Made by a program: the position numbers and the translations under genes. DNA of 62,401 bases from Pseudomonadota bacterium (GTDB lineage: Bacteria > Desulfobacterota > Desulfobulbia > Desulfobulbales > Desulfocapsaceae). This document shows positions 23,201-58,852 of the stretch, piece by piece. Location: positions 1 to 62,401 of the forward strand of contig JAHJKP010000036.1 of assembly GCA_018821985.1 (NCBI GenBank), written 5' to 3'. The notes under the pieces are model-generated. The model was not told the origin of the DNA. It searched no databases and saw only the letters and a program-made list of their open reading frames with translations. How positions within the stretch are numbered: position 1 is the stretch's first letter; each line of letters starts with the position of its first letter.

Positions 23201-23209
23201 ATGACAAAC

Positions 23210-41362: not shown

Positions 41363-41375
41363 AGGAGAAGCAACC

Positions 41376-41669: not shown

Positions 41670-41684
41670 CGAGGCACACGAACA

Positions 41685-41954
41685 ATGATCGCCAGAAAGT
41701 TTCCACAATATCTGTCTAAACCGTTTCAAGTCCTGTGGTTTGAGGTGGATGAGCTAGTTTTGTTCCTCTTCTTTCTGACCCTGTCATTGCTCTACGGCAA
41801 GCTGATGTGGGTTATTTTTCTGGTGTCTCAATATTCCTACACCAAAACCAAACGATCTCAGGCTCGGGGATTTTTGAAACATATCCTTTATGTCTTTGGC
41901 CTGGTCAAAATGAAGAATTATCCAGACTATTTCCAGCAGGAGTTTCACGAGTGA
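41685..41954 (+). CDS. traL: TraL-like pilus assembly protein
   Basis: The 89-residue protein reads YLSKPFQVLWFEVDELVLFL then a second hydrophobic stretch, and ends with a Tyr/Phe-rich tail (KNYPDYFQQEFHE), matching TraL/VirB3-like proteins of type-F systems. Its stop overlaps the GTG start of traE. Confidence 0.82.
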   Translation: MIARKFPQYLSKPFQVLWFEVDELVLFLFFLTLSLLYGKLMWVIFLVSQYSYTKTKRSQARGFLKHILYVFGLVKMKNYPDYFQQEFHE

Positions 41955-42538: not shown

Positions 42539-43488
42539 GAAAAATCTTACGGTTAAGTCTGTGCCTATTGCTGGCTGCGTCCTCGGTGCAAGCTGAAGAA
42601 AAATCAACGCCTGTCCCACCTGTTCCCTCTGTTGCTCCAGAACCAACACCAAAAGAAGAACACGTTCCTGCTTTGAAGGCGCCAATGAGGGAACAGGCTC
42701 CTGACCTGAAAGATCAGACCTCTATTCTTCCAAAACAGGATCCTGTTGTAATAGAGCCAAAACCAATCAAACCTACAAAAGATTCAACCGCAGCCTTTGA
42801 TGAACCAGTGCCGGTCAGCTTCATTGCCGCTGAAATGCCTACTATAGTACAGTTGTCCAATCGTGACATCAACCGGATTGTCTGTTCCGGGCCGATGAGT
42901 GATCTGATTTTTTCTGAAGAAAAAGGCGTTACTGGTCATTTTTCTGGCAATAGTGCTTTTATTAAATTCAAGGCCGAGGAGATGAACGGCGAGTTGCTGT
43001 ATGCCGAAACTCCCAGCGAGTTGTTTGTTGTCTGCAATGGGGCAGTCTATACCCTGATTGCGGAACCTCACGAAATCCCTTCTGTAACCCTGCATCTGGC
43101 CGCACCAGCAAAGGATGTTTTTCAAAAGAATATCGACCATTACAAAAATCTGCCCTTGGAAAAACAGGTCTTGCAAATCATCCGTGAAGGTTATGAAGGC
43201 GGCTATCCCTCCAGCTACAAGGTATCAAATGCCGACACCCTGATTCCCCTGTGTGGTGATCTAAGCGTCAACCTGTTGCAGACCGTGGATGTGGAAGGGG
43301 TAGGATTGCGATTGAAGCAATACAAGGTTGTCTCTACCAAGGGTGAGACGATGGAATTGCAGGAAAAAACCTTTTTGTCGCTTGGTATCAGTGAATCAAT
43401 CCTGGCCGTGGCCATAGAGGATCATGTTTTGAATACCGGCGAGGCAACCAGGGTGTTTGTGGTTGAGAAAAGGGAGCAATCGCAATGA
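42535..43488 (+). CDS. traK: TraK/VirB9-like secretin-type protein
   Basis: The 317-residue protein has a signal peptide (about 1-20), a Pro/Glu-rich linker (about 25-95) and a TraK domain starting IVQLSNRDINRIVCSGPMSD. In F-type systems TraK forms the outer-membrane core with TraB and TraV. The long Pro-rich linker is an extension compared with F TraK (about 242 residues). It overlaps traB by 4 bp. Confidence 0.85.
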   Translation: MRKILRLSLCLLLAASSVQAEEKSTPVPPVPSVAPEPTPKEEHVPALKAPMREQAPDLKDQTSILPKQDPVVIEPKPIKPTKDSTAAFDEPVPVSFIAAEMPTIVQLSNRDINRIVCSGPMSDLIFSEEKGVTGHFSGNSAFIKFKAEEMNGELLYAETPSELFVVCNGAVYTLIAEPHEIPSVTLHLAAPAKDVFQKNIDHYKNLPLEKQVLQIIREGYEGGYPSSYKVSNADTLIPLCGDLSVNLLQTVDVEGVGLRLKQYKVVSTKGETMELQEKTFLSLGISESILAVAIEDHVLNTGEATRVFVVEKREQSQ

Positions 43489-44702
43489 CCCTGAAAGAGA
43501 GGTTCAACAACCTGACACCTGGCAATAAAAAGGCACTGGTCTGGTCGGTAGTCGGTCTCGTTGTCCTGGCAATCGCTGTCACTGGTTATAACTCCCGCTC
43601 CAAACGGATAGATGTTGCAGCGGTACAATCAAACAAGACCATTCACCTTGACCCTGACATGATTGAGAAAACCATGCTCAAGGAACAGGGGCGGCAGATT
43701 GATACCCTGAAAAAGACCGTGAATGATCTGCAAAAAAGCCAGACCGACTTTCTGGATATTGAAAAGCAGAAAAACAAAGACGAACAAAACAAGAGATTAG
43801 TTATCCCCAGCCCTGACCAATTAGCTGAAGGAAAACCGCTGATGGATGCAAAGGGAAGATCTTTGCTGGATGAAAAAGGTCTTCCTCTGTTTGACAATAG
43901 TCAACAAACACCTTTGATGGGAAGGAACTTGGGGCCGCAACCGCAAGGGAGTGGTCGTGGGGGCCAGCAAAAGGAAAAAAAGATCGTGGGCAAGATTGCG
44001 GTGGTTTCAAATCAGACCGCTATCCCCAAAGATGATAGTAAAAAAAAAGTGAGGACGGTTTATCTCCCCCCTTCCTTCATGGAGGCGAGCCTTTTGACAG
44101 GTTTCGATGCTGCTACTTCGAGCGGTGCCAAGGGGGGCAACTCCGAACCTCTTTTGCTCCGTATCCAGACCCCGGCAGTCCTGCCAAATGACATCAAGGC
44201 GAACCTGTCCGGTTGTTTTGTCATTGCCGAGGCCGTAGGCAGGTTGGACAAAGAACGGGCCGATGTACGCTTAGTTTCGCTTTCATGTCTGTCCAACGAG
44301 GGCAGCGCCGTTATCGACACCCCAATCAAGGGCTTTGTAACTGATTCTGACTCCAAGGTTGGCTTATCGGGACGAGTGGTTTCCCGGATGGGAGCGAGCA
44401 CAGCCAGGGCGATCATAGCCGGTGTGTTCGGTGGAGCTGGTGAAGCGTTAAAGGCAGCGGCCACCACAACCTCAACATCCGCCTTGGGAGCTACCTCGTC
44501 TATTGATGCGTCGCAGATCGGTAAGTATGCCGTCGGTGGTGGATTATCCGAGGGAGCGAACACCCTGCAAGATTTTTACATGGCACTGGCGAAACAGACG
44601 ACTCCGGTTATCGAAGTTGCTGCCACCAAGAAAATTACCGTCATTGTCTCGGAAGGTAAGGATCTGGAAATCAAAGAAAATAAAAGAGATCAGGAAATAT
44701 GA
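43485..44702 (+). CDS. traB: TraB/VirB10-like channel scaffold
   Basis: The 405-residue protein has an N-terminal membrane helix (about 18-36), a coiled coil (about 55-100), a charged linker, and the VirB10-type beta-barrel domain (about 190-395: FMEASLLTGFDAAT, LLRIQTPAVLPND, GCFVIAEAVGRLDKERADVR, VVSRMGASTARAIIAGVF). It spans the inner membrane and links to TraK and TraV. Confidence 0.87.
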   Translation: MTLKERFNNLTPGNKKALVWSVVGLVVLAIAVTGYNSRSKRIDVAAVQSNKTIHLDPDMIEKTMLKEQGRQIDTLKKTVNDLQKSQTDFLDIEKQKNKDEQNKRLVIPSPDQLAEGKPLMDAKGRSLLDEKGLPLFDNSQQTPLMGRNLGPQPQGSGRGGQQKEKKIVGKIAVVSNQTAIPKDDSKKKVRTVYLPPSFMEASLLTGFDAATSSGAKGGNSEPLLLRIQTPAVLPNDIKANLSGCFVIAEAVGRLDKERADVRLVSLSCLSNEGSAVIDTPIKGFVTDSDSKVGLSGRVVSRMGASTARAIIAGVFGGAGEALKAAATTTSTSALGATSSIDASQIGKYAVGGGLSEGANTLQDFYMALAKQTTPVIEVAATKKITVIVSEGKDLEIKENKRDQEI

Positions 44703-45277
44703 TGAAATCACTGTCTGTCATTCTCCCTTTGTTGCTTCTGCTGCTCCTGTCAGGTTGCGGCGGGTTCAAAAGTATCATCAATCCCTATGAAGAAAACTTC
44801 AAGTGCCGCACCAGGGATGATGCCGGCAAGTGCATTGATACGCCATCCGCATACAAAGAGGCCAGGTTCCCCGATGCTGATGATGCTACCGATACTACAT
44901 GCACGAACGCCAATGGTGACAAGATCCCCTGTCCTGACAGTAACGGCTCAAAAAACACCTGTACAGATGTCGAAGGCACAGAGATCCCCTGCCCTCCTGC
45001 TACTGTGGCCGATGAATCCAAGATCACTATAACCAGAGTTTCAAAGACCAATATCAACCAGTTAACCGCTCAAAACAGCCGCTACAAGGCACTCACGGAA
45101 CTCCTGGAGGAACCGGACAAGCCCATGCTGGAGCCACCCAAGATCATGCGGGTGCTGATGCTGCCCTACAAAGGAGAAAGTGATGAACTGTTCATGACTC
45201 GCTATGTCTATTTGAAACTGAAAGAGTCGCAATGGGTTCTGACAGATATAAGTGAAAAGCCAAAGGCGAGACAATGA
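44699..45277 (+). CDS. traV: TraV-like lipoprotein
   Basis: The 192-residue protein has a lipoprotein signal with the lipobox LLSGC (Cys about 19), then GGFKSIINPYEENFKCR, typical of TraV, and cysteine-rich repeats (TTCTNANGDKIPCPDSNGSK, TCTDVEGTEIPCP). It ends with the conserved RVLMLPYKGESDELFMTRYV. It should anchor the channel core in the outer membrane. It overlaps traC by 4 bp. Confidence 0.83.
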   Translation: MMKSLSVILPLLLLLLLSGCGGFKSIINPYEENFKCRTRDDAGKCIDTPSAYKEARFPDADDATDTTCTNANGDKIPCPDSNGSKNTCTDVEGTEIPCPPATVADESKITITRVSKTNINQLTAQNSRYKALTELLEEPDKPMLEPPKIMRVLMLPYKGESDELFMTRYVYLKLKESQWVLTDISEKPKARQ

Positions 45278-47817
45278 TTGATTTTTTGCAACGGGTCATC
45301 TACGGCAATACCGAATACCTGAAACACAGCGATCTGGCAAAATTGACCAGGCGGCATCCCTTTTCTGCCTTCTTAAACTATCTCGCCTACGACCAGAAAA
45401 ATGAAATCTATGTGAATCAGGACAGTACCCTTGGGATGCTCTGGGAGTGTTCCCCACTGACCTACGCAGGGGAAAGGGCCATGTCCTCGTTAGAGGGCAT
45501 TTTCAGGGCGGGTATGCCGCACGGCACTATTATTCAGTTTATCTTACATGCCGATTCCCATATTGAGCCAATCATTGAGCGGTATCGAACAAGCCGGACC
45601 AGAACAGAAGCAATCGTCACCACCAATACCGAACGGGTTACTGAATTTTTAACCAAGGGGAAAAAGGGGCTGGAGGCATGCAGTAACATTCCGGTCAGGA
45701 ATTTCCGGCTGTTTATAGCTGTTAAAATCCCAGGAGATAGCCCAGGTCTTCCTAAGCCGGACGAACTCGGCAACAAGGAAAAAGTTGCACCCTTGCTGGA
45801 CATCAAACGGCAGATCAACGAGACCCTGAAAGCGACCCAGCTTTATCCCAGGCATCTGTCACCGGGAAACTTGCTTGAATGGTTGCGCCGGTTGCTCAAT
45901 AGCTACCCAGAGGGGTATCCAGAGCACAATTTTTCTTCTTACAGCCCGGATATTCCTCTGCTGAAACAGATCGTCAATGCGGACACGGTTATCAAGGAAG
46001 GCAGCGATCATATCCAGGCCGGAGACAATTTCTTCTGTTGCACTACGCCTAAGAGCTTTCCTCGTGAAGTTGACCCCCTGCAAACCAATTCCCTGTTCGG
46101 CGGGATATGGGGCATTATCTCTGATGCCGACCAGATCAAGACTGATTTCCTCTATTCCTTCAATATCGTCTTTCAAAAGGGACTGGATGTATCAATCCAC
46201 GCAAAAACCAATCTGATGCTCAATCAGCAAGCGGTTGGTTCGTTATCTACCCTGCTTCACCGTAAACAAGCGGAACACATGGAGGCCACCGATGATCTGG
46301 AACATGGAGTTAAATTCCTCAAGATCATCCCTGTTTTTTGGGTATGGTCGGATGATCTTGAAAAGGCCAGAGATTCATGTACCCGTGTAAGACGGTTGTG
46401 GGAGAATAACGGCTATGTAATGCAACAGGACAACATGGTTCTGAAGATCCTGTTTATCTCGTCTTTACCGTTATGCCTTTACGCTGACGGCAAGAATATT
46501 GAAAACCTGGAGCGGGATTTTACCGCACCAGTACCTTCAATCACCCCGTTGCTACCGGTTCAGGGCGATTTTGCAGGCTCAGGCGGCATCCCAAATCTGA
46601 TCTTTACTGGCCGGAAGGGGCAGTTGATTTCGCTGGATTTTTTCGCAAAAGGGGCAACCAACTTTAATGCCTTCTGCTGTGCCACATCAGGCTCAGGCAA
46701 GTCGTTTCTGGTCAACTTCATAGCGTTCAACTATTACGCTTGCGGTTCCATAGTTCGTATTATTGACATCGGTGGTTCTTACAAAAAGATCGCTGATATG
46801 CTGGGAGCAAGGTATCTGGATTTCAGCCCAGAAATAAAAATGTGCCTCAATCCCTTCACAAACATTCTGGAACCGGATGAAGAATTAAAGTCCGTGGCCG
46901 CAGTGTTCGCACAAATGGCCTACGCCAACTCGGATACAAGGTGTGATGATACGGAATTAAATCTTTTTCGTCTGGCGGTTCGTTGGGCTTGGGACCAAAA
47001 GGGTCAGGATGCTGATTCTGATACAGTCTATGAATTTTTACAAAAATTCCCAGATCTCCCTGGCATGGAAAATCTCAAGGAGATGACCGACAACAAAGAG
47101 TTGATTGCGACAGCCAGAAGATTGGGCTTCAACGTACTGAATTTCACATCAAAGGGCTTTCACGGCAAGTTTTTTTGCGGCCCCAGCACCTTTGATATTC
47201 GCAATGACGAGTTTGTTGTTTTGGAATTGGAGAACCTGAAAGTACAGCCTGATCTGTACAAGGTTGTCACCCTGCTCATTATCAATGCCGTTACCCAAGA
47301 CCTCTACCTTTCTGATCGTTCCCGACACCGACAGATTATTTTTGATGAAGCCTGGCAGTTCCTGGATAAGTCCGCCATGCTCGCCCCGGTAGTCAACGAA
47401 GGCTACCGCCGGGCCAGAAAATACTCCGGCAGCTTCATGGTCATCACCCAATCCATTCTTGATCTGGAGTATTTTGGCGAGGTAGGCAGTGTTATCAAAG
47501 GTAACTCGGCCTTCAAAATATTTTTAGAATCATCTGACTTTGACCAGGCGAAGAAAAAAGGGCTGATTGATTATGAAGATTTTTCCATGAAACTCCTCAA
47601 AAGCATCAAATCCAACCCCCCGCACTATTCAGAGATTTTCTTCGATACGCCCTTTGGAATCGGCCCGACCCGGTTGGTAGTAAACGATTACGCCTATTTT
47701 ATCTACACATCCAAGGCCTCTGAAATCGCCATGATCGAACAGCGTGTTAAATCTGGCATGACCTATCATGAGGCCATTCTGGAAATGGTCGAGTTGCGGA
47801 AAAATGGCGAACTGTAG
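45274..47817 (+). CDS. traC: TraC/VirB4-type ATPase
   Basis: The 847-residue protein has the TraC N-terminal domain and a C-terminal AAA-like ATPase domain with Walker A ATSGSGKS (about 471-478), VRIIDIGGSYKKIADMLGAR, and the Walker B-like QIIFDEAWQFLDKS. It powers pilus assembly and transport. It is full-length by comparison with F TraC (875 residues). Confidence 0.9.
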   Translation: MIDFLQRVIYGNTEYLKHSDLAKLTRRHPFSAFLNYLAYDQKNEIYVNQDSTLGMLWECSPLTYAGERAMSSLEGIFRAGMPHGTIIQFILHADSHIEPIIERYRTSRTRTEAIVTTNTERVTEFLTKGKKGLEACSNIPVRNFRLFIAVKIPGDSPGLPKPDELGNKEKVAPLLDIKRQINETLKATQLYPRHLSPGNLLEWLRRLLNSYPEGYPEHNFSSYSPDIPLLKQIVNADTVIKEGSDHIQAGDNFFCCTTPKSFPREVDPLQTNSLFGGIWGIISDADQIKTDFLYSFNIVFQKGLDVSIHAKTNLMLNQQAVGSLSTLLHRKQAEHMEATDDLEHGVKFLKIIPVFWVWSDDLEKARDSCTRVRRLWENNGYVMQQDNMVLKILFISSLPLCLYADGKNIENLERDFTAPVPSITPLLPVQGDFAGSGGIPNLIFTGRKGQLISLDFFAKGATNFNAFCCATSGSGKSFLVNFIAFNYYACGSIVRIIDIGGSYKKIADMLGARYLDFSPEIKMCLNPFTNILEPDEELKSVAAVFAQMAYANSDTRCDDTELNLFRLAVRWAWDQKGQDADSDTVYEFLQKFPDLPGMENLKEMTDNKELIATARRLGFNVLNFTSKGFHGKFFCGPSTFDIRNDEFVVLELENLKVQPDLYKVVTLLIINAVTQDLYLSDRSRHRQIIFDEAWQFLDKSAMLAPVVNEGYRRARKYSGSFMVITQSILDLEYFGEVGSVIKGNSAFKIFLESSDFDQAKKKGLIDYEDFSMKLLKSIKSNPPHYSEIFFDTPFGIGPTRLVVNDYAYFIYTSKASEIAMIEQRVKSGMTYHEAILEMVELRKNGEL

Positions 47818-48409
47818 GCAGGTTATTATCATTCTTGGCCTTTTGCTTCTGGCCTCCCCTGCCTACGCAAAACAGCTTGGCACCATCGGCCCCGTTTATC
47901 CCGTAGTGGAGCCGGATTTGGTTGAAGAGTTAAAAGCCCGAGTCGATCAAGAAAAGATGGCAAAGATCATGGAGGAACACAAGCAGCAATACAAGGCAAA
48001 GGACATTCATACCCTGCCTACAGCCCTGAAAGACCGGACGTTTGTAGTAGATATGACGTACACCTTAGATCATGACATACCTGGTGAAGATGGGGAGATC
48101 ATGTTCAAGCAAGGGCTTACCTGGAACCCCTTGGATTATGTCTCTCTGCCCGGTGGTCTTGTGGTCATCAATGGTGAGGAGCCGAAGCAAGTGAAATGGT
48201 TTGAGAAGTCACCCTATTACCAAAACCGTCAAATCAAATTGCTGGTTTCCGGCGGATATGCGGCCCCTCTGATGAAGCAATTGCAGAGGCCGGTCTTCTA
48301 CCTGACCAAAATCATGGCTGATCGTCTGCAACTGGCTGCTGCACCCTGCGTAATCATGCAAGAGGGGAAAAGGATGATGGTGCACGAGGTAAAGATAGAT
48401 GAAAAATAA
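47804..48409 (+). CDS. traW: TraW-like pilus assembly protein
   Basis: From ATG 47804 the protein has 201 residues with a signal peptide (about 1-20, ending SPAYA), then LGTIGPVYPVVEPDLVEEL, the characteristic TraW start, and a conserved FVVDMTYTLDHDIPGEDGEI. The start lies inside the end of traC, so they are coupled. It acts with TrbC in the periplasm during pilus assembly. Confidence 0.83.
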   Translation: MANCRQVIIILGLLLLASPAYAKQLGTIGPVYPVVEPDLVEELKARVDQEKMAKIMEEHKQQYKAKDIHTLPTALKDRTFVVDMTYTLDHDIPGEDGEIMFKQGLTWNPLDYVSLPGGLVVINGEEPKQVKWFEKSPYYQNRQIKLLVSGGYAAPLMKQLQRPVFYLTKIMADRLQLAAAPCVIMQEGKRMMVHEVKIDEK

Positions 48410-49343
48410 GCATTTGATTGTTTTGTTTTTTTTGCATTTGCTTTGTTATTTTTTTGCATCTCCCGCCCTTGCTGCCCTTACCAAATCAGGTGATTCCTTC
48501 AATTTATTTTCAGATATAAATTGGGAGGAAGTTGAGTTTACGTTTTTGGGGATTTGTATCTGCCCCAGACCGCCACCAGTTTTTTTTGAGGAAGGTGAAA
48601 TTTATGAATACTGGGAGCCTTTTCTGCTCATTGATACGGTTTCAGTGGCAAACTATTCCCCGTTTATGGGGTCTGGCGGAGAATCAACTACAGGGACAAT
48701 AGCGGATGAATTAGGCGGAAAGAATAAGAGTTCGGATGCGGTATCTATTGCCGACGAGTCAACCTTTTTCCAGGCGCATGGTTTTCTCATACCGCTCATG
48801 GAGGGCATGTGCGCCCGTGACGATTTTGGCGCCTGGTGGAGCGAATATGATTCTATGTGGCAGAACGATGAACTTGCAGCGATTATCACCCCCGAAGTTG
48901 CCTTATACGCCAACAAAGCCATGCAGTTACTTTGTATGACAGATGCAGCGGCGGTAAATGTCGGCTTCCCACTTGACGTTATGCCCTGGTGTATAGGGAG
49001 CAGCGGGTCCACCTATCCCCTTAGCGGCCATGTTGACAATGACAATATCGTTCAGGCCAGTAATACCGTAGCGTCAAGGCTGATCTTCAAACTGTGCCGT
49101 TTGTTCATGATCTGCGACCCATCACCTATTTGTGGCTGCGAATACACACCTATCTGGACAAAAAGCCATTACAAGATGCACACGGCCCGGCCTGCACTTC
49201 GGGCCACCTATCCCATCGGCAAAGCGGCCAAGGTGTATGATTCTGGCCTCAATCCTCCCTATCAGGGAGAGAAGGGGTCTAACGATGAATTTCTCTGGGT
49301 GGTATTCAGAAAACAATTATGTTGCACTTGTTGTGAAGATTGA
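48399..49343 (+). CDS. traU: TraU-like protein
   Basis: The 314-residue protein has a signal peptide (about 1-25) and the cysteine-rich pattern of TraU (FLGICICPRPPPVFFEEGEI, YEYWEPFLLIDTVSVANYSP, ICDPSPICGCEYTP, a final LCCTCCED). TraU is needed for DNA transfer and pilus assembly. It overlaps traW by 11 bp. Confidence 0.87.
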   Translation: MKNKHLIVLFFLHLLCYFFASPALAALTKSGDSFNLFSDINWEEVEFTFLGICICPRPPPVFFEEGEIYEYWEPFLLIDTVSVANYSPFMGSGGESTTGTIADELGGKNKSSDAVSIADESTFFQAHGFLIPLMEGMCARDDFGAWWSEYDSMWQNDELAAIITPEVALYANKAMQLLCMTDAAAVNVGFPLDVMPWCIGSSGSTYPLSGHVDNDNIVQASNTVASRLIFKLCRLFMICDPSPICGCEYTPIWTKSHYKMHTARPALRATYPIGKAAKVYDSGLNPPYQGEKGSNDEFLWVVFRKQLCCTCCED

Positions 49344-49344
49344 C

Positions 49345-50103
49345 ATGCAAAGACGAATTCTCTTTTTCATAATGCTTGGCGGTTTGGTTGTCGGTTCAAC
49401 GGTGCAAGGTGCTGAAACTTCTTGCACCGATACGACTGCCCCTGGAACGACCAAGGCTCTCGTGGAAAAAGCCAGGGAACAGGCCAGAGAACTGGCCAAG
49501 ACCATGACCATCCCCGAGAACAGGCATAGCGAGAGAGGAAAAAAGGCCGCTGAAGCGGCTAATGCCGTCTTTCTTTCCAAGGAATTTCAGGAAAAGGTAC
49601 AAGGTTACGAAAATTGGGAAGAACTTGTCCCAAGAGCCAAGAAAGTAAAAAAAGAGCAGGAGAAAGGCATCCTTGCTGATTCTGAAAAAGTTTATCTCTT
49701 CCTGTCCAGTTCAATACCGGAGGCATCTTTTCAGGCGTACATGACCTATCTCGATGGAGTACCAGAGATCGTTCCGGTCATGCGAGGAATGGTGGGTGGC
49801 ATGGACAAACAGAACAAAAAAGAAAGGATCAAATGGTTCAGCAGGGTTCTTACAAAAGATACCACCTGCCAAGACAAACCAGAGGCACGATGCGACAGGC
49901 TCAAAATCCCCATTACGATTAAACCGAAGCTCTTTTACCAGTACGAGATTACCGAAGTCCCTACCCTGGTCTATATCAGAGGCGATGAAATCTTTCAGAT
50001 TCAGGGCGATGTGGGCCTGAATCCCCTGTTAGAAAGAGTTAATCAGGAAGCCAAAAGCCCTGGCCTGACTAATCTGATAGCCATGATCAGGGGAAGCCGA
50101 TGA
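49345..50103 (+). CDS. trbC: TrbC-like type-F assembly protein
   Basis: From ATG 49345 the protein has 252 residues, with a signal peptide (about 1-22) and the TrbC_Ftype core (YLFLSSSIPEASFQAYMTYL, ITEVPTLVYIRGDEIFQIQG). It is a periplasmic partner of TraW. It overlaps the small wHTH gene by 4 bp, so the replication genes that follow are physically part of the transfer operon. Confidence 0.82.
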   Translation: MQRRILFFIMLGGLVVGSTVQGAETSCTDTTAPGTTKALVEKAREQARELAKTMTIPENRHSERGKKAAEAANAVFLSKEFQEKVQGYENWEELVPRAKKVKKEQEKGILADSEKVYLFLSSSIPEASFQAYMTYLDGVPEIVPVMRGMVGGMDKQNKKERIKWFSRVLTKDTTCQDKPEARCDRLKIPITIKPKLFYQYEITEVPTLVYIRGDEIFQIQGDVGLNPLLERVNQEAKSPGLTNLIAMIRGSR

Positions 50104-50414
50104 ACCGATTGGAATTAAAAATTCCCATACGATCAGAGCAAGATTTTAAAGCTCTGATTGACAGCGGGGATATTGCCATAATCGGGCCACACGCATTAAC
50201 TGTGTATCTAATAATCAATGGAGAGCAAGAGTTTCCGACAGTGAAATTTCTTTGCAAAAAAAGCGGAATTTCCAACAAGCCGGTACGCCGGTCTTTAGTG
50301 GTGCTTGAGGAATATGGGGACATAGGCAAGATAGAGACACAACAGACCCGAGGCTGCTCAGTCTTTCCTCCGATCAGGATAGCGCCACAGGAGAGCAATG
50401 AAGATCAACCCTGA
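50100..50414 (+). CDS. Small winged-helix protein preceding the replication gene
   Basis: The 104-residue protein contains a probable winged helix-turn-helix (FPTVKFLCKKSGISNKPVRR, then SLVVLEEYGDIGKI), about residues 45-82. No membrane segment. It overlaps trbC by 4 bp and the initiator gene by 17 bp. It may control replication-gene expression. Family not identified. Confidence 0.6.
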   Translation: MNRLELKIPIRSEQDFKALIDSGDIAIIGPHALTVYLIINGEQEFPTVKFLCKKSGISNKPVRRSLVVLEEYGDIGKIETQQTRGCSVFPPIRIAPQESNEDQP

Positions 50415-51327
50415 GCAAAATGGCGCATATTCTGAATGCGAAGAAGAAACAGCTATTCTCAACACAAAAGTAAATAAGCAGATCGACAATATGCAGCGAA
50501 TGGCCTTTTTGAATAGCAAAGGCATCAATCCCAATAACAACTTTCAACTTGATTTGATTTTTCCTGAAACCATTGGCAAGCGCAGCGACTTGCGGCATAT
50601 CCCGAATGACTACGCCCGTTCATCCCTTTTCACGGCCACGAACAAAAGCCAGCCGCGAAAAACGCTATTACGCGAAAAGCTGTTCCACTACAACGAATTT
50701 GTTTCGATTCTCTACACCGGCATCGAGCTACGAGCCGAGGACGATGAAATCGTTTGGCTGCAAATCCTCAACTACGGGAAAGGCGTACCGCTTGGCAAGC
50801 CCTTTGAATTTTCTGTCAGAGACTTGGTGCGGGATGTGAACTGGTCAAAAAGCGGACGCAACTACGACAGGGTGCGGAATTGCATTTCACGGCTCAGGGC
50901 CAATGAAGTTTTGGCACTGAATACCAAGGCCTACGGAAAAAGTGGCTCAATCTCCCTCATTGGCAATTATGAAGCAGTCAATAACGAAGAGGGCAAGCCG
51001 ACACATTACCGCATATTTATAGACCCTAACCTGATTATGCTATTTGCCGGTAGTGCCTTTACATGCCACACCTGGGAAATTTACCGCAATTTGTCGCCAG
51101 TGGCCCGTCGCTTGGCCGATTACATTGAGAGCCACAAGCACCCATTCCCGCTTAGCCTTGAGACATTTCGGAAAATGTGCGGCTCGAAAGATTCCAGCAC
51201 CAGGAGTTGGCGGCAGACAGTCAAAAAAGCGTGCATCGAGGTGCATAAAATCAAGATTGCCGCCACCGCAATCCTCACCAAAGAGGATAAAATATGCTGT
51301 GTTCGACATAAAGACCGTAACGGATGA
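50398..51327 (+). CDS. trfA: TrfA-like plasmid replication initiator
   Basis: The 309-residue protein matches the TrfA pattern: IPNDYARSSLFTATNKSQPR, EFVSILYTGIELRAEDDEIV, WLQILNYGKGVPLGKPFEFS, YDRVRNCISRLRANEVLALN, and LSPVARRLADYIESHKHPFP. TrfA binds iterons and opens the origin in IncP plasmids. The iteron cluster starts at the end of this gene. Finding it between trbC and trbI, in the same direction, is unusual. The frame is intact. Confidence 0.85.
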   Translation: MKINPEQNGAYSECEEETAILNTKVNKQIDNMQRMAFLNSKGINPNNNFQLDLIFPETIGKRSDLRHIPNDYARSSLFTATNKSQPRKTLLREKLFHYNEFVSILYTGIELRAEDDEIVWLQILNYGKGVPLGKPFEFSVRDLVRDVNWSKSGRNYDRVRNCISRLRANEVLALNTKAYGKSGSISLIGNYEAVNNEEGKPTHYRIFIDPNLIMLFAGSAFTCHTWEIYRNLSPVARRLADYIESHKHPFPLSLETFRKMCGSKDSSTRSWRQTVKKACIEVHKIKIAATAILTKEDKICCVRHKDRNG

Positions 51328-51800
51328 CCTACGAAATCGTGTCGTATGACCTACGTTTTTTCTCTGTTTCGTGTCGTATGACCTACGGTCGTGTCGTATG
51401 ACCTACGGTGTTTTTGTTAAATGCAGGTCATACGACACGGTCTTTCTTGTTTTAAGTGTCAAATCGAGACCATTTCAAGATAGTCATGTCGTATGGCCTA
51501 CGAAATCGTGTCGTATGACCTACATTTTTTTCCTTTTCGTATCACATGACCGACGATTTGACAGAAAACCTATGAAAACGTGACAGATGACCTGCAAAAT
51601 ACGTGTCGTATGACCTACGAAATCGTGTCGCATGACCTGCGGAATCGTGTCGTATGACCTACGGGCACTTTTTGCAATCAACTGATTCTATGACAGAAAA
51701 AGGCTGTTTCTTGAGTCGCTAACCATTCTTTTAACCGTATATTTAACCTAACGAAATTTTGAAAAAAACAAATTTCCAGGAAAACTAAAAACAAATTCAG
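51319..51800. other. Iteron-type replication origin (oriV)
   Basis: The consensus TCGTGTCGTATGACCTACG is present exactly or nearly so at 51337, 51369, 51389, 51484, 51506, 51601, 51623 and 51645. Degenerate copies lie at about 51321, 51537 and 51578, and one inverted copy at 51421-51440. The spacing is irregular (20-50 bp, often 20-22). The stretch 51664-51800 is AT-rich with short TAACC direct repeats and could be the unwinding region. Spacing and degeneracy exclude a CRISPR array. Confidence 0.88.
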
Positions 51801-51811
51801 AAGAAAAAAGC

Positions 51812-52141
51812 ATGTCGGAAGAAAAACCACAATCAGAAGAAAAAAAAACAGAACCAAAGACAACTCCTGGCTATCTGGAAATAATCGTCATCACAATTCT
51901 GATCGTTCTGGGTGCGATCTGGGGTTACGACCATTTTTTTGCCCAGAAAGTTTTGACCTTTGACCTTAAGGGGTATCTGCGGGAACAAACGGCTTTGATA
52001 AAAGCAGGAGAAATGACGGAAGAACAATTCAAATCAAAGCTGGACAGGATTGAAGCTATTCTCAATGCAGAAAAAAGCAATCACGTCATACTGTTAAAAG
52101 ATGTAGTGGTCCGAAATGGCGATGAAATTTCTCCAAAATAA
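51812..52141 (+). CDS. trbI: TrbI-like type-F protein
   Basis: The 109-residue protein has a charged N-terminus, one membrane helix (about 22-42) and a short periplasmic part starting KVLTFDLKGYLREQTALIKA, the pattern of F-type TrbI. It is the first transfer gene after the origin. It overlaps the S26 peptidase gene by 26 bp. Confidence 0.72.
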   Translation: MSEEKPQSEEKKTEPKTTPGYLEIIVITILIVLGAIWGYDHFFAQKVLTFDLKGYLREQTALIKAGEMTEEQFKSKLDRIEAILNAEKSNHVILLKDVVVRNGDEISPK

Positions 52142-52661
52142 CCGTTTGGCCAGCTTTTTGTTTCGGTTGACTCGCTGGGAAAAGACCGTGGCAATGGTTT
52201 TTCTGGCTGCCTTGCTGCTGGGATCATTTCTTCCTGGACGGCTCATTGTCGCGATCAGCGATTCACTCGATTACCGGCTGTTTTTCCTGACAGCAATCAA
52301 CCGGGATAAAATCAAAAATGGAGATTATCTCGTTTTCCAGGGAGACAAAAACGAAGTGGAAAAACATGCCAAGCCTATGCTGAACAAAGACCTCGACCGG
52401 CTGATAAAAAAAGTCGGTTGCGCTCCTGGTGAAGTGCTTACCCATGATGCCCAAGGGCAATTCTTCTGCCAGGGTGTTTTTATCGGCAAGGCATTGGAAG
52501 CTGATAGCCTCAAGCGTCCTTTGCCAAAATTTCAATTTTCAGGGCATGTACCAGAAGGCAGTTTTTTCATGATCGGTACTAATCCCCGCAGTTATGACAG
52601 CAAATATTTCGGATTCGTTGATGCAAATCAGATTCTTCACAAGGCCTTACCGCTATGGTAG
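52116..52661 (+). CDS. S26-family signal peptidase of the transfer region (TraF/TrhF-like)
   Basis: The 181-residue protein has one N-terminal helix (about 25-45) and the S26 pattern: a Ser-containing ISDSLDYRLFFLT, KIKNGDYLVFQGDKNE, VGCAPGEVLTHDAQGQFFCQ, FFMIGTNPRSYDSKYFGFV. It probably processes the propilin or other transfer proteins, like RP4 TraF. In F the host LepB does this, so a dedicated peptidase follows the SXT/IncH type. Confidence 0.75.
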   Translation: MAMKFLQNNRLASFLFRLTRWEKTVAMVFLAALLLGSFLPGRLIVAISDSLDYRLFFLTAINRDKIKNGDYLVFQGDKNEVEKHAKPMLNKDLDRLIKKVGCAPGEVLTHDAQGQFFCQGVFIGKALEADSLKRPLPKFQFSGHVPEGSFFMIGTNPRSYDSKYFGFVDANQILHKALPLW

Positions 52662-53599
52662 CTGGATTTAACAACTGGCTGTGTCGCCGGATCGGTTGCT
52701 GGCTTCTAGCCGTCACCATGACGACCATGACGACCAAGGCCCTGGCCGAAGAGATTTCTTCATCGGAACCAGCTTTCTATGAAACCACCAAAGAAGGATG
52801 GTTCTGGTATCAAGAACCCCCTCCTGAAATGCCGGAGGAATCGGATCGCCCAGAAAATTCAACCATAACACGAGAGGCCGGGCCCAAGGTATTCGAGACC
52901 AAAAACCCGTCAATGGACAAGTACACCATCAATGACATCTGGAATTTACATCCAGACGAATTTCAAGGGCTGTTGAATGGAGTGCAGAAAAAAGCGGTAC
53001 AGACTCCTACTGAAAAAAACATCCTGGAATATCTGACCATGCAGGATGTGGCTCGGCGGAAGGCTCTGGCCTATGCCAATGCCACAAAATTTGTCACTCA
53101 AAAATACAGCGATAAATTCAATATCAATCAGGTTTATCCGACAACTGCGCCGGGTGTATCTGCCAGGGTACAGACCCAACAAAAGGAAATATCCAGCACC
53201 ATTCTGGCGGCTCGCGAAGATCATGCCTTACTGTTTTTTGTAGGACAGGGCTGCGGCTTTTGTGACAAGCAGGCGGCTATTCTCGCTTATTTTGTAGAAA
53301 AATACGGCTGGCAGATCAAACCCATTGATATTGGCCAGCACACCACTTTGGCAGCTCGGTTTAACATCACTACCACCCCTACCTTGGTTCTGATCAAAAA
53401 CGGAACAGAAAAATCCATGCCGGTATCAGTCGGGGTAGTGGCTCAATCGGAGCTTGAAAGAAAACTGTATCAGGCCATCCGCTATCTGGGCGGGGAAACG
53501 AACATAGAGACCTTCCAGACGTATGATTATCAGAAAGGCAGTGCCCTTGACCCTGATGCAATTTTAGAGACAGAAGAACAGCCCTGGAGGGAAAGATAA
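52655..53599 (+). CDS. traF: TraF-like conjugation protein with thioredoxin fold
   Basis: The 314-residue protein has a signal peptide (about 1-31) and the TraF layout: WFWYQEPPPEMPEE, then a thioredoxin-like domain with the redox-type CGFC (about 199-202) in FFVGQGCGFCDKQAAILAYF and TTTPTLVLIKNG. F TraF has lost this CxxC, so a catalytic motif here suggests a role in disulfide formation for the cysteine-rich TraU, TraV and TraH. It overlaps traH by 1 bp. Confidence 0.83.
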   Translation: MVAGFNNWLCRRIGCWLLAVTMTTMTTKALAEEISSSEPAFYETTKEGWFWYQEPPPEMPEESDRPENSTITREAGPKVFETKNPSMDKYTINDIWNLHPDEFQGLLNGVQKKAVQTPTEKNILEYLTMQDVARRKALAYANATKFVTQKYSDKFNINQVYPTTAPGVSARVQTQQKEISSTILAAREDHALLFFVGQGCGFCDKQAAILAYFVEKYGWQIKPIDIGQHTTLAARFNITTTPTLVLIKNGTEKSMPVSVGVVAQSELERKLYQAIRYLGGETNIETFQTYDYQKGSALDPDAILETEEQPWRER

Positions 53600-55029
53600 T
53601 GAAAAAGATGATATTGGCTTTATTCGTGAGTTTGTTATGTCCAATTTCAGCTCAAGCCGGCTGGGTGGATGACTGGTTGCAACAGAGCAACACTACACAA
53701 TCCGGTTATTTTGAAGGGCAACAGCGGGGATATTATTCCGCTGGCAGTTTTTCCGGTCGCTGGAAAAGTACCGCTGACTATCCGGTAACTATCGAACCAC
53801 CCCGCATGAAAAGCGGCTGCGGTGGTATTGATGTGTTTATGGGCGGCTTTTCGTTTATGGATTCTGATTATCTGGTGGATAAGCTCCAAGCCATCTTGTC
53901 CAATGCAGCAGGAGTGGCCTTTGACCTGGGGCTTAAAACCCTCTGTGAGCAATGCTCCAACACAATTAAAAACTTTGAGGCATTGGCTGACAACCTCAAC
54001 CAGATGCAGATTGACGAATGTGGAGCGGCCAAGGAATTAGTTGGCGTAGTGATGGATGAAAATGGAGTCCATTCGGCTGAGGTCATGCAGGAAAAACTCG
54101 GTACTGCTGTCAAAGAAAGCAAATTAGCCAGCGGTGTATCGGACATGTGGACAACACTTGTTTCAGAAGAGAAGGCAAACAACGGTCTGGTCCAGTCTGC
54201 TGATGTAACAATGGTGACCCAAGGATGTAATGCAGACATAAAGGCTGTCTTCTTCACTGGCAACTCGATGCTTGATAATGTCGGCACCAAGATGAACATA
54301 CCTGGGCCTCATATTGATCTGATTCGTGGTCTTGTTGGTGATCTCAAGCTATCAACCGCGGCTAACGCTTACAAGGTCTCCTACATGCCGCCATGCTCTG
54401 AGAATAATACTGATTCGATCAAATCTATTGCCAATGGTGATATTTACACCAAAAGTTCCGGAGGTCAATGCCAGCAGGTTACTGATGGCAATAGGGATAT
54501 GGGGGCATACATTAGACTTATGCTGACCAATATAGCAGCAAAAATACGGACTAAAACCGCATTTACAGCGGCAGAGCAGACTTTTATGGACACTAATCCG
54601 CTTTCTCCATTGCCTATTCTCAAAAGTGCCGTTGGTACCAATACGGACGATGCAACCATAAGCGGTCTGGCCGACATAACCGCCAGTGCCTACAGCCTGC
54701 AAATGATCTCAGACCTGTATATTCGGGCGGAAATGATTGCGAGGAAAGCCAAAGAGATGTTGGAAAAACAGTCAACGGGAACAAGTGGCGGCGGACCAGA
54801 AAATTGCGCCGCTGTTATTTTTGCGGAACACGCAGATCAGGACATCTCTGTCATGTTGACCAAAATCCAACAACTGAAAGAAGGGGCCAAGGCCAGTTAT
54901 ATCGCCTCGACATCAGAGATGAACGCTATCTTGGGTTATCTGGAACACATGCAGAACCTTGAAAGCAAGATGAACTCAGAACTTACCCGCAGGTACGGAA
55001 AAGATGTGGTCGCAAGGGTTAAAGACTAA
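53599..55029 (+). CDS. traH: TraH-like pilus assembly protein
   Basis: The 476-residue protein has a signal peptide (about 1-20) and the TraH signature (GYYSAGSFSGRWKSTADYPV, MKSGCGGIDVFMGGFSFMDS, LGLKTLCEQCSNTIKNFEAL). C-terminal coiled coils (about 400-470) are also typical. It acts in the periplasm or outer membrane for pilus assembly. traG starts directly after its stop. Confidence 0.87.
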   Translation: MKKMILALFVSLLCPISAQAGWVDDWLQQSNTTQSGYFEGQQRGYYSAGSFSGRWKSTADYPVTIEPPRMKSGCGGIDVFMGGFSFMDSDYLVDKLQAILSNAAGVAFDLGLKTLCEQCSNTIKNFEALADNLNQMQIDECGAAKELVGVVMDENGVHSAEVMQEKLGTAVKESKLASGVSDMWTTLVSEEKANNGLVQSADVTMVTQGCNADIKAVFFTGNSMLDNVGTKMNIPGPHIDLIRGLVGDLKLSTAANAYKVSYMPPCSENNTDSIKSIANGDIYTKSSGGQCQQVTDGNRDMGAYIRLMLTNIAAKIRTKTAFTAAEQTFMDTNPLSPLPILKSAVGTNTDDATISGLADITASAYSLQMISDLYIRAEMIARKAKEMLEKQSTGTSGGGPENCAAVIFAEHADQDISVMLTKIQQLKEGAKASYIASTSEMNAILGYLEHMQNLESKMNSELTRRYGKDVVARVKD

Positions 55030-58000
55030 ATGAAGAAAGCCACCGTCATATTCCCAGCCATTCTGTTCCTGGTGATCCTGGTTGCAGCCATATTTCAGGC
55101 CACCCCTGCCTATGCCATGGACATGGAATACTATACCTACGGCGGCTTTGGCCCGATTACGCAAGCATTTACACGGCTGGCCCTCATCTTCAGCGATGTC
55201 GGGTATATAGGTTTATTTACGGTGGTTACGGTTTTGGGTTTTCTTGCAGGGGGTATATCTTGGCTTGTCCAGGTGTCCAATGGCGGAAAAGCCACCCCTT
55301 TAATCTGGGCCGTACCTGTGATCTTCGGGGTAGTCCTCTATCTGGGCCTGTTTGTTCCCAAAGGGAATATCACTATTTACGACCCCACGCTCAACAGATT
55401 TCAGACTATTGGCGGAATCCCTGATGCAGTTGTCTTTACCGCTGGCGTACTGAATAAAGTCGAAAGAGGGCTGGTTGAGATTATTGATACCGCAGCCGCA
55501 CCAGGATCTTCATACAAGAATGGGGCTGGTGGAATTGGTTTCAAGACGCTGGATGCAGTTAAAAACTCCTACCCCAAGGATAACAATCTCCGCACAAGCA
55601 CCATCCGCTATGTCAAAGACTGCGTGACCTTTGAACTGATGCGCCCCGGAACTACCTTGTCACTCGATACTCTCCGCAATGATACCACGGATTTCCTGGC
55701 CCTGTTGGGACTGGCTGTGAATCCAGCAATCTATACGGTTTATTATGATGCGGCCAATCCCGCAGGTTTGACTAAGACCTGCACCGAAGCATGGAACCTT
55801 ATCCGGCCAGCTTATCAGAATCCAAGCAACTATGACGAAGCACTCAAGAAGGCTTGCGGTAAGGCTACATTCAATTCAAACAATACGAATGAGTTTAACA
55901 CCTGCAAACAACTCTTGAGCGACACCATGTTATTTACCACCAGCAACACTGTCACACCGGACAGGCTTGTCATGCAACGGCTGATAGCGGAAATTCTTTA
56001 TACTTTCTACTACCAGGACGATGTAGAAACTGCGGTACTCATGGAGGCGGACCGGAAAATCACATCTACTGGCTTAGGTGTCGGTCTGACCATGAATGAA
56101 TGGATTCCGATCATCAAGGCGATCATGACCGCCATTGCCATTGGCATGATTCCATTCCTTGCCTTGTTCCTGCCGACGCCTGTAGTCGGCAAGGCCCTTT
56201 CAGCCATGTTTGGATTTTTCTGCTTCTTGACCATCTGGGGCATAACTGATGCAGTGGTTCACACTGCGGCTATGGATTATGCGGCCTACGCCTTTGAAGA
56301 TGTGCGGCAGTCATCTTTGGGCGTTTATTCGATGGCGGCCTTCCCGTCCAAATCGCTCAAGATGCTGGCAATGTTCGGCATCATCCGCTCTTCCGGAATC
56401 ATGCTGGCAAGTCTCTTTACCATGATGCTGATTAAATTCGGTGGTCATGCCCTGGCTATGATGGCAGGGAGCTTGAGCGGTGCGGTAAGCGGAGCAGGAG
56501 GACAAGCGGGAGCCTTGTTGACCCCGGAAGGTACCTCGGCGGCCATGAACCAACAGGTAAAATCAGCGGGGTTGCTTGAAGGTATGCCGGAGCATCGATT
56601 TGCCAATCAGGCTTCAGCTGGAGCATTCAATAGTGTCCACAGTCCGGTAGGTGGATATAATTCCTCTATGAACGCCAGGAGTGCATTGGAAAAATCAGGG
56701 CAAATCCCAAAAGGAACATCAGATGCCCAATATGCAGAGACGCAAAAGAACTTCCAGCAAAATGCGGGGACAGCATCAGGTCAATCATCGGTTTCTCTTG
56801 GCCCGAATGGACAAGCGACCCAGGGACAAACCAAGTCTGTCAATGCAGACGGCTCAACCAGTATGACCACTACCAGCGGGGCTGGTGGGGTTGGCGTACA
56901 AACGGATAACATGGCATCAGGTCAAGCCACCCATGCGACGGACGGTCATGGTGGTACAACACTGACGAAGGCCAGCGTCAACGGGATGAGTCCGATCGCG
57001 ATGGCACATCAAGCCGCATACATAAAAACAAAAGGAGCAGGAGATAGTCTTGCCACCAATGAGAATTGGGCAAATGGGCAGAGCTATATAAAGAACGCAG
57101 CCCTAACCAGCAGCGAGGCCCGTACTTATGGTGAAAACCTTAATAATTCAGTATCTGCAAAACTGAACAAGGCTGTTGATAGTAGCTCCAGCTTTAAGGA
57201 TAGTGTGGGTGAAGAGACAGCAGCCAGGCTTAATGCTTTTGCTCAAGCAAGTGGTGGAGTAGAAATTTTTGGAACCGGTGCTAAAGGCGGTGGTAGGTAT
57301 GACGTAACAGCCACAGGAAAAGATGGTAAAACTGTGAGTTTTGATGTGGACCAGAAAACATCGGAGGCTATTGGTAATGAAATAACCAAGGCACGAGCTG
57401 AGGCCCTACAAGAAAGTATGGGAAGTAGCCAGGGTCTTGCTTTTGCCAATAATATGGCACACAATATTGGCGCAACGAAAGCGTCATCGTTGATGAATGA
57501 TGCCAGAGATATGCAGCGTTCAACAGAAACAACGGGTGCTGATCTGACGACTGCCTTTGTTGGACACTATGCGACACAACGCTACGGTTCAGATAGTCCT
57601 GAGAATGTCCGCAAGGCTACGGATGCTCTTAACCACATGGCAACAGGCGGGTCTGCTGGCATTGACCAATTGAATGGGCATATCAATTCGTTTCTTAAAA
57701 ATGGAGATTACAGTTGGGGTGATGGAAAGGCTCAGGTAGGTGCTGCGGTTGGTGCAGCCGGTGGGCAGGTTGGAGGGCAAGTCTCAAACATCCAAGGACA
57801 GGTTGGGCCGGCAGTAGGAGAATCAGCAAGTTATACATCCAGGATTACCCCTGGTGATTTCAGCGGCAATCCTGGAGTTAATCATGCTCCATTGGTCGGG
57901 CCAGAAGAAATTACAGGCCATGTTAATGCTACAGCAGATCAAAGGCTCCATGAACACCAAGATGCAAAGTTGATGGGGCCTAATGGAGCATTAGTTGATA

Positions 58001-58122
58001 ATTTGACGGGTGTGAATATACCTGCGGGAATCAAGGATTTAGCGAACAACTTAACTGAAAATAAAAAGGTTGTTGCACCTGAAGATACTTCTGAACCAGA
58101 GGGAGGATTCAGTGGCCCGTAA
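55030..58122 (+). CDS. traG: TraG-like mating-pair stabilisation protein
   Basis: The 1030-residue protein has an N-terminal signal/membrane helix and further helices (about 48-75, 90-110, 355-400, 440-480), matching the TraG_N domain. From about residue 490 it is a long hydrophilic Gly/Ala/Ser/Gln/Asn-rich region with little hydrophobic content, ending with repeated GGQVGGQ-like segments (about 905-925). In F, TraG helps pilus assembly and stabilises mating pairs. It is the last recognised transfer gene in the window. Confidence 0.82.
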   Translation: MKKATVIFPAILFLVILVAAIFQATPAYAMDMEYYTYGGFGPITQAFTRLALIFSDVGYIGLFTVVTVLGFLAGGISWLVQVSNGGKATPLIWAVPVIFGVVLYLGLFVPKGNITIYDPTLNRFQTIGGIPDAVVFTAGVLNKVERGLVEIIDTAAAPGSSYKNGAGGIGFKTLDAVKNSYPKDNNLRTSTIRYVKDCVTFELMRPGTTLSLDTLRNDTTDFLALLGLAVNPAIYTVYYDAANPAGLTKTCTEAWNLIRPAYQNPSNYDEALKKACGKATFNSNNTNEFNTCKQLLSDTMLFTTSNTVTPDRLVMQRLIAEILYTFYYQDDVETAVLMEADRKITSTGLGVGLTMNEWIPIIKAIMTAIAIGMIPFLALFLPTPVVGKALSAMFGFFCFLTIWGITDAVVHTAAMDYAAYAFEDVRQSSLGVYSMAAFPSKSLKMLAMFGIIRSSGIMLASLFTMMLIKFGGHALAMMAGSLSGAVSGAGGQAGALLTPEGTSAAMNQQVKSAGLLEGMPEHRFANQASAGAFNSVHSPVGGYNSSMNARSALEKSGQIPKGTSDAQYAETQKNFQQNAGTASGQSSVSLGPNGQATQGQTKSVNADGSTSMTTTSGAGGVGVQTDNMASGQATHATDGHGGTTLTKASVNGMSPIAMAHQAAYIKTKGAGDSLATNENWANGQSYIKNAALTSSEARTYGENLNNSVSAKLNKAVDSSSSFKDSVGEETAARLNAFAQASGGVEIFGTGAKGGGRYDVTATGKDGKTVSFDVDQKTSEAIGNEITKARAEALQESMGSSQGLAFANNMAHNIGATKASSLMNDARDMQRSTETTGADLTTAFVGHYATQRYGSDSPENVRKATDALNHMATGGSAGIDQLNGHINSFLKNGDYSWGDGKAQVGAAVGAAGGQVGGQVSNIQGQVGPAVGESASYTSRITPGDFSGNPGVNHAPLVGPEEITGHVNATADQRLHEHQDAKLMGPNGALVDNLTGVNIPAGIKDLANNLTENKKVVAPEDTSEPEGGFSGP

Positions 58123-58129
58123 CTTCTTA

Positions 58130-58294
58130 CTAATCATTACCCCATCGATAACTGGAATCATATTCAAAATCTGGCTCACCCATCCGTTTAATTTCTTCAA
58201 TATTTATGAGTTTCATATTTTTTCCAATAAAGGTGGCAAATATCTTTTTGGTGATAGGCTCAAGCAATTTATCAATCGCATCGAAAAGTCCCAT
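58130..58294 (-). CDS. 54-residue protein convergent with traG
   Basis: ATG 58294 is preceded by AAGGAG, 8 nt away. The product reads MGLFDAIDKLLEPITKKIFA, then TFIGKNMKLINIEEIKRMGE, ending DSSYRWGND. It has an amphipathic N-terminal helix. The stop is 8 bp from the traG stop on the other strand. Good ribosome site and balanced composition suggest a real gene; the family is unknown. Confidence 0.6.
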   Translation of the reverse strand: MGLFDAIDKLLEPITKKIFATFIGKNMKLINIEEIKRMGEPDFEYDSSYRWGND

Positions 58295-58340
58295 GATTTT
58301 TTCTCCTTACAATTTTTGGAATCACTTCCGGTAAACCATC

Positions 58341-58387
58341 GAAGATCAACGGCCACCGAGAATGGGCCTCCAAAAAAGCTCGTCGGA
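58341..58387. repeat. Left arm of ~47-bp inverted repeat around the HU gene
   Basis: The arm starts GAAGATCAACGGCCACCGAG and matches the reverse complement of 58805-58852. The first 30 bases are identical; the rest differs by small indels. Confidence 0.85.
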
Positions 58388-58507
58388 GGTTGCCACCCTT
58401 CTGTTATCTCTTTCTATCTTCTTGGCATCTTGATAATATGTTCATCTAAAATTCTGTTATCATAAACCAACAACAAAATCAAAACCCTTTACTATGGCAG
58501 AAAATTT

Positions 58508-58780
58508 ATGACTAAAATTGAACTTGTCAACATCATTGCACAAACACCTGGAGTCACCAAGGTTGATGCTCAAAAAGTCATTCAGGCTTTCATGTCTTCA
58601 ATTACCAAGGCACTCTCTACGGGTGAGAAAGTGACTTTAATGGGTTTCGGATCACTTCAACCTGTCAAAACCAAGACCAGAATGTATCGGGATATTCAAA
58701 GTGGGGAGTCAAAAAAAGCCCGAGGGAAAACAATTGTCAAATTCCGAACCGGTTCTAATTTATCAGAAAAGATAAATTAG
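58508..58780 (+). CDS. HU/IHF-family DNA-binding protein
   Basis: The 90-residue protein has the HU layout: MTKIELVNIIAQTPGVTKVD, ITKALSTGEKVTLMGFGSLQ, the beta-arm region (RMYRDIQSGESKKARGKTIV) and FRTGSNLSEKIN at the end. The arm has RDIQSGE where typical HU has RNPxTGE; Pro at the arm tip is missing, which may affect DNA bending. It is a single gene, framed by inverted repeats, suggesting a mobile or invertible cassette. Confidence 0.88.
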   Translation: MTKIELVNIIAQTPGVTKVDAQKVIQAFMSSITKALSTGEKVTLMGFGSLQPVKTKTRMYRDIQSGESKKARGKTIVKFRTGSNLSEKIN

Positions 58781-58804
58781 CAAATAACAAGAAGGACGGC
58801 CCTT

Positions 58805-58852
58805 TCCGACGAGCCTTTTTGAGAGGCCCATTCTCGGTGGCCGTTGATCTTC
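58805..58852. repeat. Right arm of ~47-bp inverted repeat around the HU gene
   Basis: It begins 25 bp after the HU stop codon. It could be part of a transcript-end structure, but the partner lies 420 bp away, so it is more like a cassette boundary. Confidence 0.85.

Follow-up and report, generated by a model that had tools for sequence, protein, structure and literature searches.

The stretch of DNA analysed here (62,401 nucleotides; hereafter the window) includes a mobile element of Desulfocapsa-like bacteria with a transfer operon on the forward strand at 39688-58122, delimited by profile matches, gene position and synteny. The operon begins with a sigma-like gene, an ORF at 40055 and an OmpA-like gene, continues through traA, traL, traE, K, B, V, C, W, U and trbC, and then holds a wHTH gene, trfA and a candidate oriV before resuming with trbI, an S26 peptidase gene, traF, H and G. 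The labels traA and traL were assigned by position alone. Profiles matched E, K, B, V, C, W, U, trbC, F, H and G, which with traL make up the F-type (MPF_F) set, and no match to TraN was found among the scanned operon proteins. From traA to traG the gaps between successive ORFs range from -212 to +15 nt, with the exception of the trfA-trbI gap of 484 nt.

The F-type trbC gene (49318-50103, + strand; PF09673, E 8e-13) forms the left edge of the site; its ORF spans 49132-50103 and its start codon is uncertain, the true start probably lying near 49318. The end of trbC and the start of the wHTH gene (50100-50414, + strand, 104 aa) have the sequence ATGA in common, and the wHTH gene in turn overlaps trfA by 17 nt, in keeping with the continuous operon that the initial annotation had described. 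The wHTH product matched HTH_36 and GntR below their cut-offs (for HTH_36, 22.1 bits against a cut-off of 25 in the Pfam profile search). The trfA gene (50398-51327, + strand) encodes a full-length IncP-type replication initiator of 309 aa, identified by PF07042 (E 1.9e-64, 218 bits against a Pfam cut-off of 22) and by its place in a tree. On the right the site is bounded by a trbI-like gene (51812-52141, + strand), for which TIGR02744 gave a weak match below its cut-off (E 0.012), so that the call rests on position and synteny in relatives. A sequence search of solved structures gave no useful relative of either TrfA or the wHTH protein. A consensus scan of 50100-51812, confined to sigma-70-like promoters and terminator-like sites and with totals not clearly above those of shuffles, found no such promoter and no terminator-like site on the + strand; the three terminator-like sites that it did return all lie on the minus strand.

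The trfA-trbI gap is filled by an iteron array (51316-51663, + strand, consensus CGTGTCGTATGACCTACG) together with an AT-rich tract (51706-51760, + strand); the initial annotation had the iterons begin at the end of trfA and lie between trbC and trbI. The consensus matched ten times at up to three mismatches in the 62,401-base window, always within 51316-51663, against a chance expectation of 0.03, and none of 100 shuffles reached ten. Nine of the copies are direct, starting at 51316, 51338, 51370, 51390, 51485, 51507, 51602, 51624 and 51646 on the + strand, and the first of these overlaps the trfA stop codon; a single inverted copy lies at 51422-51439 on the minus strand, and looser copies occur near 51538 and 51579. 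The repeats are non-palindromic and are spaced like those of TrfA origins elsewhere. The AT-rich tract is a candidate unwinding element, recognised from its sequence, from a four-genome alignment and from repeats in relatives; TAAC repeats recur in it every 12 nt (51720, 51732 and 51744) after a conserved CTGTTTCTTGAGTCGC block. An alignment of four such gaps retains the iterons, the inverted copy and a block, CTGTTTCTTGAGTCGCTAAC, with the TAAC repeats, and the initiator, iterons and AT-rich repeats are kept as one unit in four genomes. The right halves of the iterons vary between elements and largely agree inside each element, as expected of working binding sites: they read TATGACCTACG in the window, are mixed at locus L016 (for instance GATGAAACACG and TATGACGCACG) and are mostly GATGGAACACG at L017 and L018. 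No DnaA box (TTATNCACA, up to one mismatch) was found in the window origin, L017 or L018; the L016 origin has one site with one mismatch, and exact boxes occur in all five Pseudomonadota origins scanned. Of the other features of an IncP-type oriV, an array of iterons of ~17-22 nt, an inverted copy and AT-rich repeats are present in the window. RK2 likewise has direct iterons with an inverted copy, as does plasmid p1 of Nitrosomonas eutropha C91, and at least one inverted copy lies behind trfA in 17 of 17 TrfA loci compared at up to five mismatches, several having two or more.

Upstream of the operon lie an HTH_3 gene (39449-39691, + strand), which overlaps the sigma-like gene by 4 nt, and a divergent gene (38839-39354, minus strand) that matched no Pfam family above cut-off and has homologues, 25-29% identical, upstream of the operon in five relatives. 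The first operon gene itself (39688-40221) resembles a sigma factor (sigma70-ECF model, E 5e-4, below cut-off), and it is possible that it serves as a dedicated activator of the transfer operon. In the window, the block homologous to that of relatives spans 39687-58857, and its flanks vary among genomes. At its right end is an HU-like gene (58508-58780, + strand; PF00216, 82 bits), flanked by the arms of a 47/48-nt inverted repeat (58341-58387 and 58805-58852).

A TrfA of the window kind was found in three of 16 other genomes of the same genus, some of which are incomplete. The order TraU-TrbC-wHTH-TrfA-gap-TrbI is present in all three, the contig of genome G012 being cut inside trbI. The layout recurs in these genomes and is therefore not chimeric in the window, a possibility that the initial annotation had raised for the junctions at 50100 and 51812. 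No second TrfA was found in the window's genome; among the 40 window proteins scanned against Pfam there was no match to another replication-initiator family, and the one further replication match was RPA, on TrfA itself. The proposal that the transfer operon contains an initiator gene together with an iteron origin is supported for the window and for these three relatives. At a wider scale, 39 genomes among 257 from the order have a TraU match (E <=1e-20), and not every such match need be this element.

The nearest TrfA proteins outside the genus are 56-75% identical and come from Methylobacter, the Aromatoleum plasmid pLuFRes1, Thauera, N. eutropha and others. Within a plasmid collection, three of 598 matching records exceeded 60% identity, the best being N. 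eutropha C91 p1 (69.9% over 90%). Iterons directly behind trfA are also a property of these nearest relatives: copies at up to five mismatches, at least one of them inverted, follow the gene at 12 of 12 Pseudomonadota genomic loci and on the N. eutropha plasmid. The four window-type TrfA proteins fall together as a clade (100/100) that has Methylococcaceae as its sister group (95/90) and is nested in Pseudomonadota, far from the order's own TrfA in a tree with some long branches. The case shows how an IncP-like replicon passed from Pseudomonadota to Thermodesulfobacteriota, carried by an element whose transfer system is of a different type.

Beyond the initial annotation, comparison of relatives indicates that replication modules of more than one kind occupy the position after trbC, depending on the element. 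We examined 25 of 59 TraU places, made up of the 14 best (>=73% identical) and 11 of the 45 more distant. All 14 of the closest elements have a module behind trbC, and trbI is seen past it in 13, the contig of G199 ending first. At each of the 11 distant junctions, the matches to trbC and to trbI are no more than ~20 nt apart, with no module between. The TrfA of distant relatives is 22-26% identical to that of the window and its gene is located at the operon head, before the sigma-like gene, at seven loci and also in G134. The iterons there are of 22 nt, with the core GGGGGCATAGC followed mostly by GGTCGYAA and a variant in G080 C35; together with an AT-rich tract they lie between trfA and the sigma-like gene clearly at five of the seven loci, are degenerate in G042 and are absent from G051a (G134 is outside this count). 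G080 C30 has iterons too, but no operon was seen behind them. In the window, the 4-nt overlap between the HTH_3 gene and the sigma-like gene means that this head-of-operon TrfA and its iterons are absent.

The modules behind trbC are of three types. Type A (the window and three others) consists of the wHTH gene, an IncP-like TrfA and iterons. Type B (five elements: G195, G029 twice, G199 and G198) has a TrfA that shares 40-42% identity with the one encoded at the operon head in the order, and 7-18 iterons whose core, GGCATAGCGGT, is common to the head-of-operon iterons; a wHTH match was found in three of these, one of them partial. Type C (five elements: G008, G006 twice and G012 twice) is a putative replicon without TrfA; its wHTH protein is 193-204 aa long and is accompanied by dyad repeats and by an AT-rich tract. 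The 104-aa wHTH protein of the window is homologous to this longer protein over the N-terminal half of the latter. For the type C protein, the family ranked first is one of unknown function (E 2e-24), and phage replication-initiation families come next (E ~1e-9), so that the protein may be an initiator. The simplest history would be one in which the order's own replicon moved from the operon head to the site between trbC and trbI, giving type B, and was then exchanged with types A and C.

The modules and the backbone that carries them have differing histories. We compared an upstream flank tree (TraC, W, U and TrbC; 20 rows) with a downstream one (TrbI, S26, F and H; 17 rows). Neither type A nor type C forms a single group on either tree, where some other nodes are weak, and nodes at 100 part the two type C groups on both flanks; type B is one clade. 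The wHTH proteins of type C nevertheless group together at 100. Forcing either type A or type C into a single clade was rejected on both flanks (AU p <=0.004; 12 rows, 2000 resamplings), which indicates that module and backbone differ in history. The types could also come apart on trees through recombination between coexisting elements, and the two histories differ either way. It is from the sequence that the anatomy of the module, its conservation and these separate histories are read. In genome G006 a type A element coexists with two of type C, and all three differ in repeat sequence, which would fit selection for compatible replicons, and the two type C elements of G012 are alike, which would speak against it.

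Several close relatives of the window element are chromosomal and integrated, and any coupling of replication to transfer would therefore act on the excised form. Three tRNA genes lie beside the block on contig C71 of G006, along with genes for proteins that we take, from inspection by eye, to be GroEL-like and aminotransferase-like; G051 is a single contig of 6.3 Mb carrying two copies of the element; and in G029 a 20.7-kb block is present twice, at 94-96% identity, once in a contig of 1.69 Mb and once in one of 444 kb. At its left end, the element carries genes for a tyrosine integrase and a repressor in G006 and G002. These observations bear on the possibility that the window element is an ordinary conjugative plasmid, with IncP-type replication, an F-type channel and a replicon in its normal location, an explanation that is compatible with a replaceable replicon between trbC and trbI. 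In its favour, or against integration of the window copy, the window contig ends in a dispersed repeat and so is not placed in a chromosome; no integrase was seen beside the window copy; no convincing attachment repeats or tRNA genes were found at the element ends and none at the edges of the window copy; and a related F-type operon (TraC 44% identical) is carried by a circular plasmid of Desulfosarcina BuS5. Placement in the chromosome through the genes of the left flank (~31.2-33.7 kb, with a match of at least 0.8 kb in eight of 16 other same-genus genomes) was undercut by an 80% copy of a gene pair on contig C34 of the same genome, so that flank matches cannot decide the matter; the right flank matched mainly dispersed repeats. 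Circularity was sought and no terminal overlap was found. The contig ends (1-197 and 62208-62401) form an inverted repeat, exact over 141 nt and 93% identical over 197 nt, of a dispersed intergenic family, and neither circularity nor linear telomeres follow from it. Related copies of this repeat lie near 2571-2675 and 9037-9273, and a separate group of imperfect repeats, the longest reaching 693 nt at 94%, clusters at 22997-25715. Given the chromosomal setting of the relatives, the framing as a plain plasmid is doubtful, the window element may not be one, and we regard this explanation as possible and on the unlikely side.

The genes that would complete a transfer system were sought in the wider set of genomes. 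TrwC and Relaxase profiles matched in none of nine genomes, TraI_2 gave short matches in all nine and exceeded its cut-off in one, and MobA_MobL matched in one of ten, G195, on contig C46 and not on C60, which carries the element concerned. In five elements (two in G051 and one each in G019, G198 and G195) traG is followed, 29-44 kb downstream and on the same strand, by a TraD-like gene. The one profiled, from G198, gives a match to SXT_TraD (E 8e-54) and lies next to a gene for an HD-domain protein, which may be a divergent (MOBH) relaxase. The idea of an element lacking relaxase and coupling protein was dropped once this pair had been found in the five elements. No TraD-like gene is present on the window contig and none matched in G029 or G002. 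The TraD module comprises a ~250-aa protein, the TraD-like protein, the HD-domain protein, and proteins of ~250 and ~127 aa; the TraD-like gene and a neighbour of 440-480 aa occur in 11 of 11 stretches (L156-L166), the other module genes in 7-9 and a weakly Rad52-like gene nearby in five. The window's genome has three TraD-like genes (on contigs C6, C24 and C49; L161-L163) and one traU match, hinting that the extra copies belong to partial sister elements. The region downstream of traG (L141, L139, L046-L048 and L085) looks like a cargo site for defence genes: it presumably encodes a BrxC-like protein in G029 C3 and SIR2/HerA-like and SbcCD-like proteins in G051, and on the BuS5 plasmid (L085) TIR and phospholipase-D anti-phage genes are annotated there.

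Known elements share parts of this arrangement. In SGI1, a small HTH gene, rep and an iteron oriV follow one another in one operon under a transfer activator (PMC7433901), and replication is linked to transfer by AcaCD/SgaCD (PMC7433901, PMC8409611); the same sources describe yicC elements with a TrfA and a predicted AcaCD site upstream. The window element resembles SGI1 in being of a probably integrated kind, in the order of HTH gene, initiator and iteron origin (the S004-rep-oriV layout) and in a replication that would be switched on with transfer functions. It differs in that SGI1 is mobilisable and not self-transferring, its replicon forms an operon of its own under AcaCD/SgaCD outside the channel genes, S004 is of the HTH_17 kind whereas the window protein is HTH_36-like, and Rep is described as uncharacterised and not as TrfA (PMC7433901, PMC8409611). 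The IncP-1 plasmids (RP4, pJP4) and N. eutropha C91 p1 share the TrfA family and a trfA that adjoins trb genes. The initial annotation had set the layout against F and IncP plasmids with separate origin and transfer operons; for IncP this contrast was overstated, as replication and transfer of RP4 are tied by opposed promoters, with trfA under its own repressed promoter (PMC7314908). What does distinguish IncP-1 is that trfA is read away from trb in its own operon, and that the channel is P-type and the relaxase MOBP. SXT/R391 elements resemble the element as proposed here in being integrated with plasmid-like copies, and an SXT-type TraD relative lies in the far module of the one relative tested. 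Their channel is F-like. The plasmid-like copies are transient and replication appears to start at oriT with the relaxase TraI (PMC4489591), in contrast to a start from an iteron origin inside tra genes. Plasmid pPRO1 of Pelobacter propionicus has a similar F-type order (OmpA-traL...traC, U, trbC, small gene, S26, traG), and differs in having its initiators outside the operon, ~2 and 5 kb upstream; a 219-nt gap follows its trbC, with no annotated replicon. The replication genes of the Agrobacterium Ti plasmid lie outside the channel operon, and its replicon is of the repABC kind. In the Ti plasmid, TraR raises expression of both tra/trb and repABC and so couples copy number to transfer (PMC7856919). 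Coupling of copying to transfer is thus known by other routes; an iteron replicon within the channel operon, or a slot for its exchange, is something for which we found no description in open-licence papers, judged by title or abstract.

We propose, with a probability of about 0.68, that 50100-51811 is the replication module of a probably integrated conjugative element with an F-type channel, and that the trbC-trbI site is a replaceable replicon slot that ties replication to expression of the channel. The competing idea of a passenger replicon, inserted between trbC and trbI without joining in the regulation and replicating from a weak promoter of its own, draws on the origin of the IncP-like TrfA outside the order and on the repressed promoter that trfA has in RP4 (PMC7314908). 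It sits poorly with the finding that the closest elements all carry a module behind trbC, of three unlike types, that distant relatives keep a replication module at the operon head, and that the genes overlap with no sigma-70-like promoter detected by the consensus scan at 50100-51812; we consider it unlikely. Less probable still is that the repeats are operators of the wHTH protein, with TrfA a relic and no origin present. The type C relatives, which lack TrfA and have dyad repeats and a wHTH protein whose top-ranked family has no known function, could be read in that way, but the window repeats are non-palindromic with the spacing of a TrfA origin and an AT-rich repeat tract beside them, TrfA is full length, and phage replication-initiation families are among the matches of the type C protein.

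Under the proposed replicon slot, derepression of the operon would yield one message for both channel proteins and TrfA. TrfA would bind the iterons just behind its gene and open the AT-rich tract before trbI. With the operon on and the element excised, the channel and plasmid-like replication would begin together, and replication of the excised circle would add template for transfer and stabilise the circle. We infer from the layout that the operon is transcribed through the site, that TrfA binds there and that the origin is active; such transcription may itself hinder the origin. The coupling of replication to channel expression that the initial annotation had put forward seems a reasonable idea, and one strengthened by the arrangement across the element family. 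The slot would hold an IncP-like module in the window lineage and others in relatives, so that the identity of the replicon changes while its link to transfer is kept, and unlike modules would let several elements share one cell.

More tentatively, at slightly worse than even odds, we suggest that trbC-trbI is a dedicated slot: that replication moved from the operon head to its middle, that whole modules of initiator and origin were then swapped, in one case with IncP-like replicons of a different phylum as the source, and that replication would be wired to channel expression whatever the module, so that a cell can hold several copies with different, compatible replicons. The arrangement bears on what determines the placement of replication and transfer genes in mobile elements and on how such elements switch incompatibility group; with at least three unlike modules at one address on closely related backbones, coupling by address and coexistence by module both become testable.
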